From Kitasatospora phosalacinea (GTDB lineage Bacteria > Actinomycetota > Actinomycetes > Streptomycetales > Streptomycetaceae): a stretch of 64,000 nt of DNA. The notes under the pieces are model-generated. The model had not been told where the DNA came from, made no database searches, and worked only from the letters and a program-made list of their open reading frames with translations. The position numbers and the translations under genes are program-made. The stretch is from positions 13,539 through 77,538 of the forward strand of contig NZ_JNYE01000024.1 in the NCBI RefSeq assembly GCF_000717185.1. Reading direction: 5' to 3'. The stretch's first letter is position 1, and every line of letters begins with the position of its first letter. Shown in pieces: positions 52,959 through 56,239 of the stretch.

Positions 52959-53798
52959 ATGTCTTCGTCCGATATTCCGCGATTGGGCACCGGCCTGGGG
53001 TGGCGCCCGGAGATCGACACCGCGGTGGAGCGGATGCCCGGCCTGGACTGGGTGGAGGTGGTCGCCGAGAACGTCTGCGCCGACCACCTGCCGCCCTCGC
53101 TGGTCGAACTGCGCGCCCGCGGCGTCACGGTCGTCCCGCACGGCGTCTCGCTCGGCCTCGGCGACGCCGCCGCGCCCGACCCGGCCCGGCTGGCCCGACT
53201 CGCCGCCGTCGCCGGGGCGCTCGGGGCGCCGCTGGTCAGCGAGCACCTGGCGTTCGTCCGGGCGGGCGGCCTGGAGGCCGGGCACCTGCTGCCGGTGCCG
53301 CGCACCCGGGAGGCGCTGCGGGTGGTGGCCGCCAACGTCCGGATCGCCCAGCAGGAGCTGCCGGTGCCGCTGGCACTGGAGAACATCGCGGCCCAACTCG
53401 CCTGGCCGGGCGATGAGTTGACTGAGGCGCAGTTCCTCGCCGAACTGGTCGAACACACCGGCGTCCGCCTGCTGGTGGACGTCGCCAACCTGCACACCAA
53501 CCACGTCAACCTGGGCGTCGACCCGGCCGCCGAACTCGACCGGCTGCCGCTGGAGGCCCTCGCCTACGTGCACGTCGCGGGCGGCGTCGAGCGGGACGGC
53601 GTCTGGCACGACACCCACACCCACCCCGTCACCGCGCCCGTGCTGGACGTGCTGGCCGCGCTCTGCGCCCGCACCGACCCGCCCGGGGTGCTGCTGGAGC
53701 GGGACGGCGCGTACCCGCCGCCCGCCGAACTGTCCGCCGAGCTCGACGCCATCCGCCGCGTCCAGCTCCTCCACCGCAGGGAGACCGCCCGTGTCTGA
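52959..53798 (+). CDS. DUF692 family multinuclear non-haem iron-dependent oxidative enzyme (MNIO)
   Basis: 279-residue TIM-barrel protein of the DUF692/MbnB/TglH family, which oxidatively rearranges cysteines or carboxylates in peptide substrates using two or three irons. It starts LGTGLGWRPEI. The probable metal ligands of the family are visible: His61 (PHGVSLGLG), Glu95-His96 (SEHLAF), Glu141-Asn142 (LALENIA), Asp174, Asn177 and His179 (LLVDVANLHTNHVN), His205 (YVHVAGG), Asp218, His220 and His222 (HDTHTHPV) and Glu247 (LLERDG). ATG 52959 has an AGGGGG ribosome site; an earlier in-frame start at 52926 looks non-coding. It overlaps the next gene by 8 nt. Confidence 0.92.
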   Translation: MSSSDIPRLGTGLGWRPEIDTAVERMPGLDWVEVVAENVCADHLPPSLVELRARGVTVVPHGVSLGLGDAAAPDPARLARLAAVAGALGAPLVSEHLAFVRAGGLEAGHLLPVPRTREALRVVAANVRIAQQELPVPLALENIAAQLAWPGDELTEAQFLAELVEHTGVRLLVDVANLHTNHVNLGVDPAAELDRLPLEALAYVHVAGGVERDGVWHDTHTHPVTAPVLDVLAALCARTDPPGVLLERDGAYPPPAELSAELDAIRRVQLLHRRETARV

Positions 53799-54228
53799 GC
53801 AGCACGAGTACCTGATCCGCGACCGTGCCGACGCCGAACTCGCGCTCGACCGGGTCCGGTTGGCCCACCGCCAGGAGCAGCTGCTGGCCGCCCTGGTGGC
53901 CGGCGGCCCCGCCCCCGCGGGCTTCGACCCGGAGCAGCTGCGCGGCCAGGCCGCGGGCCTGCTCGCCAAGCGCCGGGAGACCGTCGGCCACCTGCTGCCC
54001 GAACTCCCCGAACTGCTCGGCCCCGACTTCGCCCCGCTGTTCACCCGCTACGCCACCGGCCGCCCGCTCACCGGCGGCCACCGCGCCGACGCCCGCGCCT
54101 TCGCCGCCTGGGCCCTCGACACCGCCCCCGACGCCCCCTGGCACCCCGCCCTGCGCCGCCTGCTGCACCCCGCCGCCTCCCGCTGGAGCCGCCTGCTGCC
54201 GCGCCGGTCGGCGAGGACGCACCCGTAA
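53791..54228 (+). CDS. Conserved partner protein of the DUF692 enzyme
   Basis: 145-residue, mostly helical protein with no known family that I recognise. It starts with GTG 53791 inside the end of the MNIO gene, an 8-nt overlap that implies coupled translation in a fixed ratio. Sequence features: EYLIRDRADAELALDRVRLAHRQEQLLAALVAGG, a central LLAKRRETVGHLLPELPELLGPDFAPLFTRYATGRPLTGGHRADARAFAAWAL and an Arg-rich tail. MNIO enzymes usually need a small companion (such as TglI or MbnC) that recognises the substrate; position and size suit that role here, but this is inferred from context. Confidence 0.8.
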   Translation: MSEQHEYLIRDRADAELALDRVRLAHRQEQLLAALVAGGPAPAGFDPEQLRGQAAGLLAKRRETVGHLLPELPELLGPDFAPLFTRYATGRPLTGGHRADARAFAAWALDTAPDAPWHPALRRLLHPAASRWSRLLPRRSARTHP

Positions 54229-54252
54229 CCGCCCCGCCGCACCGCCACGCTT

Positions 54253-54310
54253 CGCCGCGCACCGCACCGTCCCGCACCAGCACACTCCGCCGCGCACCGC
54301 ACCGTCCCGC
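54253..54310. repeat. Direct 23-bp repeat in the intergenic gap
   Basis: The same 23-mer (contains CGCGCACCGCACCGTCCCGC) occurs at 54253-54275 and 54288-54310, in the gap between the partner gene and the first membrane gene. Only two copies; it probably arose by duplication. Confidence 0.8.
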
Positions 54311-54342
54311 GCAGCGCCCCACACAGAAGGGATCCACGGGGG

Positions 54343-55398
54343 ATGTGGAACTTCCGGTTCGTCCTGGCCTTCGCGCTCGTCGCGCTCTCGCTCGCCGTCG
54401 CCGCCGCCTTCAACCGGCGCAGCCGCCGGGTCACCGACCCGCAGGGCCTGCCCGGGCGGGGCCTGCCGCTGCTGGACGTCGCCTTCCTGGCCGGCGGCCC
54501 CGCCCGGGTCGTCGACACCGCTCTGGTCCGGATGGAGCGCGAGGGCCGGGTGGTGGTCTCCCGGGCCCGCCGGGTCACCGTCACCTCCGACCGGACGTCC
54601 GACCCGGTCGAGCGCGTCCTGGTCACCGCCGTCGGCGGCCGGGCCGGGCGCGACCTGTCGGTGCTGCGCTCCTCCGTGGTGGGCAGCCCCGAGGTGCAGC
54701 GGATCGGCGACGGGCTCGCCGCCCGCGGTCTGCTGCGCCACCCCGCCGCGCTGAGGGCCGCCTGGCGGGCCCGCAAGCTGGTGGTGCTGGCGCTGCTCGT
54801 GACGCTGGTGCTCGGCGTGGTCTCCACCGTCCAGTGGCTGGACGGGCCGGACCGGGACTCGTCCGCGCCGCCGGTCTTCCCGTACGGCGTGCTGGTGCTG
54901 TTCACGGTCGTCAGCCTGGTCGCGACCCGGCCCGCGAAGAGCAGGATCACCCCGGCCGGGCGGCGCCAGCTGCAGCTCGTCCGCGGCAGCACCCCGTGGC
55001 GGCCGCGCGAGGTCGCCGCCGGGCAGGCCGGGCACGCCGAACTGATCGGCGCGTTCGCCCTGGACGGCACCCAGGCGCTGCGCGGGTCCGAGCACCGGGC
55101 GCTGCGCGAGGCGCTGACCGGCCCGTACTCCGCCACCCGTCCGGCCCGCTCCTCCCGGGGTTCGGGGGCGGACGGCACCACGGGGCTCGCCACCGGCGCC
55201 GCGGCGGCGTGGTGCGGGGCGTCCCCGGCGTCCTCCTGCGGGTCCTCGGGCGGGTCCTCGGGCGGCCACGGCTCCTCGCACCACTCCTGCGGCGGCTCGT
55301 CCTCGCACTCCTGCGGCGGTTCGTCGAGCTCCTGCGGCGGTTCGTCGAGTTCCTGCGGGTCGAGCTGCGGCGGCGGTGGCTGCGGCGGCGGTTCCTGA
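54343..55398 (+). CDS. TIGR04222-type membrane protein with a Cys/Ser/Gly-rich C-terminal tail
   Basis: 351 residues. Transmembrane helices at about 5-23, 146-164 and 180-195. The conserved domain is LLDVAFLAGGPARVVDTALVRMEREGRV (residues 43-70) with a helical continuation to about 140. From residue 265 the protein becomes low-complexity: ARSSRGSGADGTTG, then eight cysteines from Cys291 on, in units such as SCGGSSS, SSCGSSC and GGGGCGGGS at the very end. The tail resembles a RiPP-like modification segment. Gene order directly after the MNIO enzyme and partner suggests the tail is their substrate. Function unknown. Confidence 0.85.
   Translation: MWNFRFVLAFALVALSLAVAAAFNRRSRRVTDPQGLPGRGLPLLDVAFLAGGPARVVDTALVRMEREGRVVVSRARRVTVTSDRTSDPVERVLVTAVGGRAGRDLSVLRSSVVGSPEVQRIGDGLAARGLLRHPAALRAAWRARKLVVLALLVTLVLGVVSTVQWLDGPDRDSSAPPVFPYGVLVLFTVVSLVATRPAKSRITPAGRRQLQLVRGSTPWRPREVAAGQAGHAELIGAFALDGTQALRGSEHRALREALTGPYSATRPARSSRGSGADGTTGLATGAAAAWCGASPASSCGSSGGSSGGHGSSHHSCGGSSSHSCGGSSSSCGGSSSSCGSSCGGGGCGGGS
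55290..55370 (+). repeat. Tandem repeat encoding the SCGGSSS units
   Basis: About four imperfect 21-nt copies built on TCCTGCGGCGGTTCGTCG, each giving a Ser-Cys-Gly-Gly-Ser-Ser-Ser heptad. They form the C-terminal Cys-rich segment of the membrane protein and differ mainly at silent or Ser/His positions, which suggests protein-level selection for regular cysteine spacing. Confidence 0.75.
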
Positions 55399-55464
55399 GC
55401 CCCGCCGAGTCACAGTTCGGTATCGCGGCCCGGGTATGCGTTCCGCTCCCGGCACGCACAGGAC

Positions 55465-55470
55465 TAGAAC
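55465..55470 (+). promoter_or_regulatory. -10-like element for the second membrane gene
   Basis: TAGAAC, 7 nt before ATG 55478 without a ribosome site; possible leaderless internal promoter. Confidence 0.4.
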
Positions 55471-55477
55471 GAAACCC

Positions 55478-56239
55478 ATGTGGGTGCTGCTACTGATCCC
55501 GTCCTGTGCCGCCGCGGTGTACTCCTGCCTCCGGTTGGTGCGGGTCGCCGCGATCGCCGACGCCCTCGCCGGGCGGTCCCCGCACGCCGCCCACCACCCC
55601 TCCGGCGTGGGCCTGTACGAGACCGCGTACCTGGCCGGCGGGCCCGCCCGGGTGGTCGACCTGGCGCTGGTCCGGATGGCCGGGGTGGGCCGTCTGCACC
55701 TCGCCCACACCGGCTGGACCACCGTCGTCGACCCGCGGGGCCGCGGCCGCCTCGAACGGGCCCTGATCGGCGCGATCGGCCCCGAGGGCCAGTGCCGCAC
55801 CGCCCAGTTGAAGGCCGTGCTGGCCGCGCACCCCACCGTCCGCGACATCGGCGACCGGCTCACCAGCGCGGGGCTGGCCACCCCGGCCGTCGTCCGCGAC
55901 CACGCCCTGCGGGCGGTGCGGCAGGTCCGCTACGCGCTGGTCGGCGCGGCCTCGATGCTGCTGCTCACCGTCCTGCTGACCGCCCCCGACGGGGCCGCCG
56001 CCCGCACCGCCGCCGCCTGGTACGCCCTCCCCCTGGTCCTGACCGGCGGCACCCTGCTGATGGCCCGGGTCGACGTCCACGCCTACACCGCCTGGGCCGC
56101 CCCCGCGGGCCAGACCCTGCTGCGGACCCTCCCCTGCCGCCACGCGCCCGCCACCGACGACGACCTGCTCACCGCCGTCGCCATCTCCGGCCCCGCCGCC
56201 GTCCAGGACCCCCGGCTGCGCGCCGCGCTCGACTCGTAG
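55478..56239 (+). CDS. Second TIGR04222-type membrane protein, without the Cys tail
   Basis: 253 residues, a paralogue of the gene upstream: GLYETAYLAGGPARVVDLALVRMAGVGRL matches the LAGGPARVVDTALVRM core. It has an N-terminal helix with two cysteines (LLLIPSCAAAVYSCLRLV), the shared helical domain, and two further helices near SMLLLTVLLTA and WYALPLVLTGGTLLM. The C-terminal third is short and non-repetitive; there is no Ser/Cys tail. It could be a partner subunit of the first membrane protein, forming a hetero-oligomer, or a regulator of it. It ends 16 residues after TDDDLLTAVAIS and is followed by a terminator. Confidence 0.82.
   Translation: MWVLLLIPSCAAAVYSCLRLVRVAAIADALAGRSPHAAHHPSGVGLYETAYLAGGPARVVDLALVRMAGVGRLHLAHTGWTTVVDPRGRGRLERALIGAIGPEGQCRTAQLKAVLAAHPTVRDIGDRLTSAGLATPAVVRDHALRAVRQVRYALVGAASMLLLTVLLTAPDGAAARTAAAWYALPLVLTGGTLLMARVDVHAYTAWAAPAGQTLLRTLPCRHAPATDDDLLTAVAISGPAAVQDPRLRAALDS

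Follow-up and report, generated by a model that had tools for sequence, protein, structure and literature searches.

The DNA stretch analysed here, 64,000 nucleotides (nt) of Kitasatospora phosalacinea contig NZ_JNYE01000024.1 (hereafter, the window), carries at positions 52959..56239 a cassette in which an MNIO, a multinuclear iron enzyme of the DUF692 family, stands next to a membrane protein with a cysteine-rich C-terminal tail. The locus raises the question of whether this tail is the substrate of the enzyme and, if so, on which side of the membrane. An earlier note on this DNA took the cassette to be undescribed and the tail to be at the surface. The cassette belongs, instead, to a conserved system outlined in print in 2025, where both the link between the two proteins and the idea of the tail as substrate are already published (Antoine et al. 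2025, PMC12452194, passages on TIGR04222 proteins). To that outline our sequence comparisons add a one-way dependence of the tail on the MNIO, a near-universal partner, a predicted cytosolic orientation and a transplantable tail; modification of the tail is putative. Four open reading frames (ORFs) on the forward strand make up the cassette, as follows (aa, amino acids):

52959..53798, + strand: MNIO (DUF692, PF05114) enzyme, 279 aa, nine iron ligands conserved
53791..54228, + strand: partner protein, PF26136 (SCO6045-like C-terminal domain), 145 aa, GTG start
54343..55398, + strand: TIGR04222 three-helix membrane protein with Cys tail, 351 aa
55210..55395, + strand: Cys tail (residues 290-351), a WC motif followed by C-(G/S) units, eight Cys, predicted disordered
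55478..56239, + strand: tail-less TIGR04222 paralogue, 253 aa

This gene content is as the earlier note had described it, including the 8-nt overlap of the partner ORF with the MNIO ORF. The TIGR04222 profile scored 112.5 bits for the tailed protein and 119.4 bits for the paralogue against a cut-off of 43, placing both in the family. The tailed protein has three hydrophobic segments (residues 6-24, 146-164 and 177-195), and all eight of its Cys fall within the last 61 residues; the tail is predicted to be disordered, with a predicted local distance difference test (pLDDT) score mostly under 50. The tailed protein and the paralogue are probably structural partners.

Cys tails and MNIO genes across the class

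We searched 296 genomes of the class (Actinomycetes) and found TIGR04222 matches in 100 and MNIO matches in 66. The TIGR04222 search was limited to 9 scored candidates in each genome and may therefore have missed proteins; loci were fetched for 101 of the 131 match rows (those of at least 36.8 bits and one of 34.2; the 30 others were weaker or second-half rows). On the fetched loci a local profile recovered 98 TIGR04222 proteins. With a Cys tail defined as 3 or more Cys in the 40 C-terminal residues, at least half of these being Gly/Ser, 41 proteins were Cys-tailed and 57 were not. A same-strand MNIO gene lay within 5 kb of 37 of the 41 Cys-tailed proteins versus 20 of the 57 tail-less ones (Fisher p 2.6e-8), and the remaining four Cys-tailed proteins had an MNIO elsewhere in the same genome. 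Equal frequency of Cys tails without a linked DUF692 gene, which would have spoken against the earlier note, was hence not seen, and the linkage supports its proposal that the tail is a probable MNIO substrate.

By genome the association was complete: all 39 genomes found with a Cys-tailed TIGR04222 protein, which span 20 genera and 9 families, have an MNIO (38 by profile search, and G079 by an MNIO fragment beside the gene that runs off the contig end), against 67 of 296 overall (66 by search plus G079). The hypergeometric p is 7e-31 by genome and 5e-18 by genus, with relatedness ignored. Among TIGR04222 genomes without a Cys tail, 15 of 37 have an MNIO. As a control for tail composition, MNIO genomes accounted for 5 of the 11 Gly/Ser-rich tails with 0-1 Cys, compared with 41 of 41 for those with at least 3 Cys (p 2.3e-5); the single Gly/Ser-rich tail with exactly 2 Cys, from the MNIO-free genome G037, was placed in neither arm. 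None of the seven Gly/Ser-rich tails of MNIO-free genomes carried an array of at least 3 Cys; outside the Gly/Ser-rich group, 30 of 45 tails were in MNIO genomes. Since the rates split by Cys number, it is the Cys and not the Gly/Ser tail that tracks the enzyme. This suggests a one-way dependence, in which a Cys-tailed TIGR04222 protein would need an MNIO but not the reverse.

The tail itself is conserved. In 87 sequences from Streptomyces and Kitasatospora relatives C291 is invariant, and W290, C316, C331, C338 and C347 are each at least 90% conserved. The WC pair opens the tail in these relatives and occurs in 69 of 104 Cys tails overall (41 from the class sample, 63 from named loci). In this set 764 of 765 tail Cys precede G, S or A, where 712.5 would be expected from tail composition, and 540 precede G versus 358.5 expected; no tail terminates in Cys, and the spacing between Cys peaks at 6-8. 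We also counted ORFs with a strict Cys tail: 109 lay within 5 kb of MNIO genes (1.55 Mb), with 108 sharing the strand of the MNIO, and 4 elsewhere (0.93 Mb), all on TIGR04222 proteins. The loci behind this count had been picked for TIGR04222 or MNIO, so the background is not random, and a few items are counted twice (L263 repeats L124; L115 and L209 are from the same genome). Because tail Cys recur in homologues and strict tails cluster at MNIO genes, the tail is not a product of chance. Among 11 tail ORFs on proteins other than TIGR04222 we kept seven; L107, L223 and L231 resemble broken TIGR04222 genes, and L154 lies on the opposite strand.

The enzyme, its partner and known systems

The identity of the enzyme is as first proposed. 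The PF05114 profile scored 269.6 bits for the window MNIO (cut-off 25), and in an alignment all nine iron ligands of TglH (listed in PMC10880893) are identical: H61, H96, E141, D174, N177, H205, D218, H220 and E247. The same nine are present in 135 of 136 MNIOs from related loci, the single exception being an alignment gap. NCBIfam models ranked BufB (190.7 bits) above HvfB (150), ApyH (120.8), ChrH (47.5) and MbnB (34.6), with the equivalog cut-offs at 310 for BufB (NF050167), 360 for HvfB (NF003818) and 325 for MbnB (TIGR04159). The closest solved structures by sequence were TglH and an uncharacterised DUF692 protein, with MbnB much weaker. A GTG codon 33 nt upstream would give an MNIO of 290 aa; we prefer the 279-aa start because the four closest relatives listed have 279 aa. 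Among the matches listed, the nearest MNIO was from K. phosalacinea (97% identical). The source genome encodes a third TIGR04222-like protein, scoring below the cut-off, on another contig; the protein has no Cys tail and that contig no MNIO.

In line with the earlier note, the partner is a dedicated one: it adjoins or is fused with the MNIO in 54 of 56 class loci (as a single ORF in 30) and in 77 of 80 named loci (single ORF in 57); an SCO6045-like partner is near-universal beside MNIOs of this group, and often fused. PF26136 is the precomputed family of the window partner (P0125) and of the other 73 proteins listed. A Pfam scan (E up to 1) reported no family for the window partner, neither PF26136 nor DUF2063, the signature of PME-type 1. 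Encoded next to an MNIO and free of that signature, it corresponds to PME-type 2, the name given in PMC12452194 to non-DUF2063 partners, which that paper predicts in at least 10% of clusters. Its predicted structure is all-helical, and the best match among the solved chains compared was MbnC, a weak one. An engineered HvfB-HvfC fusion mimicked the complex and had high activity, according to the part of PMC13419390 on that construct. Two Streptomyces loci, L213:5920-9022 and L238:5992-9217, carry an intact MNIO-partner fusion with no TIGR04222 match within the fetched stretch.

The passages of PMC12452194 on this family count more than 3,500 TIGR04222 proteins, describe Ser/Gly-rich C-terminal regions with Cys, subsets of which are proposed as MNIO substrates, and call the MNIO linkage frequent but not systematic. 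They rate it as less tight than in bufferins, with no MNIO in 490 of 1372 TIGR04222 genomes, and assign the tail to the periplasm. The window cassette, with a Cys-rich C-terminal segment and an MNIO in the cluster, falls within that published group, which shares the MNIO, the TIGR04222 protein, the Ser/Gly-rich Cys tail and the non-DUF2063 partner and is mostly from Actinomycetota. Our data differ from that description in that the tail looks cytosolic, the partner is near-universal, mini-protein and soluble carriers occur as well, and, when the Cys content of the tails is taken as the criterion, the dependence appears strict one way. Bufferins, captophorins and oxazolin (BufB, FonB, HvfB) share the top MNIO models, the repeated C-terminal Cys followed by a small residue and a partner, but are free Sec-exported precursors with PME-type 1 (DUF2063) partners, whereas the protein here is membrane-anchored and its partner SCO6045-like. 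Measured against a small precursor with a Sec signal (a comparison made without a signal-peptide program), the window protein has 351 aa, three helices and charges that put the first helix N-out. The methanobactin pair MbnB-MbnC likewise joins an MNIO to a helical partner, the one weakly closest to ours, although the MbnB score is far below cut-off and no small precursor peptide was seen in the cassette. TglH-TglI (pearlin/3-thiaglutamate) shares all nine ligands but acts on one C-terminal Cys of a 50-residue scaffold peptide, unlike the tail here. Besides PMC12452194, the literature matches listed for TIGR04222 comprised an ant-symbiont genome paper, and those for SCO6043-SCO6045 an expression table in PMC4991794; PF26136 and "membrane-anchored RiPP" (ribosomally synthesised and post-translationally modified peptide) occurred in none of the 10 papers listed out of 12 matched. 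Nor did we find a cytosolic tail, mini-protein carriers or strict dependence in the literature searched, which left subscription journals and supplements outside.

Orientation and carriers of the tail

Segments rich in K and R flank membrane helices on their cytosolic side (the positive-inside rule). For the 26 of the 41 Cys-tailed class proteins with exactly three predicted transmembrane helices (TM1 to TM3), the mean number of K+R was 0.19 before TM1, 2.65 after TM1, 3.15 before TM2, 0.69 in the TM2-TM3 loop and 3.69 after TM3, where the loop averages 7.9 residues and is compared with 15-residue flanks. More K+R followed TM3 than filled the loop in 22 of the 26, with three ties and one reversal, and among 106 of 116 homologues the figures were 91 with more, 1 tie and 14 with fewer. 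By the positive-inside rule this distribution therefore places the N-terminus outside and the tail inside.

Other carriers point the same way. Six class loci from three genera (L158, L159, L244, L245, L246 and L248) encode mini-proteins of 83-119 aa (start codons chosen by us) that consist of a single helix, a basic patch and a Cys-Gly tail, with at most one K/R N-terminal of the helix and the 20 residues that follow it containing 5-7. Their genes lie between MNIO and partner, except in L248, where the gene directly follows the partner; these are possibly minimal MNIO substrates. Beside a fused MNIO-partner gene, L162:6851-8206 (- strand) encodes up to 452 aa of a protein that carries a CGGGG tail at its C-terminus and has no hydrophobic segment above threshold (maximum Kyte-Doolittle 1.39); the carrier is thus soluble, and an exported tail is not expected there. 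Charge distribution, mini-proteins and soluble carrier together suggest a tail in the cytosol, a prediction at odds with the "surface tail" of the earlier note. Found near MNIOs on three unrelated carriers, the tail is, to judge by these sequences, transplantable.

Chemistry, function and rival explanations

The mechanism that we propose builds on the enzyme family, its ligands, the partner gene, the tail, the linkage and the one-way dependence, all established by sequence; its orientation is drawn from charges, and modification, chemistry, metal binding, function and the role of the paralogue are its putative parts. The first two genes would form an MNIO holoenzyme, an iron TIM barrel with a helical, perhaps MbnC/PME-like partner, and this would act on the disordered C-terminal tail of the TIGR04222 protein, oxidising Cys of its C-(G/S/A) repeats on the cytosolic side of the membrane, with no export. 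The likeliest product would be 5-thiooxazole, as made by the BufB/HvfB/FonB group, and the outcome a modified-sulfur ligand array anchored under the membrane, with a probable role in the handling of soft metals (copper) or in thiol/redox stress. We give this reading as a whole slightly better than an even chance. 5-Thiooxazole is our best guess, held at somewhat less than even confidence, owing to the Cys-small-residue context, the likeness to HvfA/FonA and the top BufB/HvfB scores. In the parts of the reports concerned, HvfB converts repeated C-terminal Cys of HvfA to 5-thiooxazoles (PMC13419390), and FonBC makes 5-thiooxazoles in a reaction that, of the substitutions tried at the Gly following Cys, tolerated only Ala, with diverse residues around Cys in other clusters (Gadgil et al., PMC13097082). 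By analogy with bufferins, the tail may bind metal. A marginal functional lead comes from Streptomyces coelicolor SCO6045, an MNIO fused to its partner if the Pfam family name PF26136 is followed: the expression data in PMC4991794 list it as up 3.01-fold by H2O2 and in a 28-gene HbpS-SenS-SenR-dependent set rich in sulfate-to-cysteine synthesis genes.

A wider reading, to which we would give not quite an even chance, is that actinomycete MNIOs modify a non-exported, cytosolic Cys tail on three unrelated carriers and serve against metal or oxidative stress at the inner membrane face; such tails would mostly be membrane-tethered arrays of modified Cys, distinct from secreted bufferins and methanobactins. 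The characterised MNIO substrates in the portions of the papers used here are peptides or exported precursors. If the wider reading holds, MNIO chemistry would also be an intracellular protein modification, with Cys tails in 20 genera of one class, and the mini-proteins and natural MNIO-partner fusions would offer very small expression systems for testing it.

Several alternatives, not mutually exclusive, have to be set beside the cytosolic modification of the tail. Points against that modification come from the MNIO side. A threshold of 150 bits with the local profile retained 65 class MNIO loci out of 77 match rows and left out 12 distant or broken ones. Of the 65, 34 have a linked Cys-tailed TIGR04222 protein; in 7 the linked Cys tail is on a different carrier, and 24 show no such tail. 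All nine ligands are kept at each of the 38 loci (class and named sets together) where no Cys-tailed TIGR04222 protein was detected. The dependence thus held from tail to MNIO and failed from MNIO to tail. Several loci without a Cys tail, L157 (class) and L181, L197, L202, L218, L219, L228 and L232 (named), stop shortly after the MNIO, so a contig end may explain some of the absences. One genus of the window's family supplies most of the tail-less MNIO strains, the named ones being mostly Streptomyces, and on a quick MNIO tree the tail state changed 18 times, 12 of them forced by well-supported branches. Given the intact ligands, the MNIO probably has other work in these strains. The tail could then be an unmodified Cys-rich metal or redox tail that shares only regulation with an MNIO acting on another protein; DUF4142-like and tail-less TIGR04222 proteins also adjoin the enzyme. 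Against this alternative, which we consider unlikely, stand the MNIO in each of the 39 genomes found with a Cys-tailed TIGR04222 protein, the three unrelated carriers on which MNIO-linked Cys tails occur, and a residue next to Cys that is small, as it is in FonBC substrates. That the tail is a functionless accident of GC-rich Gly/Ser codons would suit its simple composition and predicted disorder, yet is scarcely credible in view of the invariant C291 with four further Cys conserved to at least 90%, the lack of Cys arrays in MNIO-free Gly/Ser-rich tails and the shared strand of nearly all strict tails near MNIOs.

The other two alternatives keep the modification and change its place or its nature. 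Export of the tail to the outer membrane face after modification in the cytosol would agree with the periplasmic location inferred from predicted topology in PMC12452194 and with the Sec export of bufferins and oxazolin; we regard it as quite improbable, because the charge pattern of the 26 class and 106 homologous three-helix proteins, the basic patch between helix and tail in the six single-helix carriers and the soluble carrier without a membrane segment all argue against it. A different Cys chemistry, whether oxazolone-thioamide formation as by MbnB, beta-carbon excision as by TglH or a new reaction, seems somewhat unlikely. In its favour, no equivalog cut-off is reached and the nearest solved structures are TglH and an uncharacterised DUF692 protein, with MbnB much weaker; against it, BufB and HvfB outrank ApyH, ChrH and MbnB, and the repeated C-terminal Cys with a small next residue resemble HvfA/FonA.

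Further observations concern the MNIO loci themselves. At L121, L140, L145 and L148 (genus g2; G073, G123, G101 and G133), which have no linked Cys tail, distant TIGR04222 paralogues carry one Cys near a Gly-rich end (CGG in three); they are perhaps substrates in trans. A protein that we take to be DUF4142-like, with a Pro-rich tail such as YPLPPAATSPPP, is encoded next to the MNIO, for example at L073:6892-7686 (- strand), and a local profile found it at 14 of the 56 class loci and 26 of the 80 named loci with an MNIO. L257, L258 and L259 (class genomes) encode MNIOs of 366-370 Pfam bits, another MNIO type; neither an SCO6045-like partner nor a strict Cys tail was found in their fetched stretches. 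At L260:6034-7047 the MNIO gene of G198 is in fragments beside the partner gene, a decaying or mis-sequenced copy. Finally, genes that are presumably HemQ-like and HemY-like lie at window positions 56319-58600 (- strand), convergent to the cassette, and their order is conserved across Streptomyces and Kitasatospora loci. The earlier note had read this neighbourhood as a hint of metal binding. A short-motif search found the HemQ-like gene on the opposite strand in all 63 named loci with the motif (80 examined), and it persists at loci without a Cys-tail gene; the arrangement therefore looks like plain synteny, and we give it no weight.

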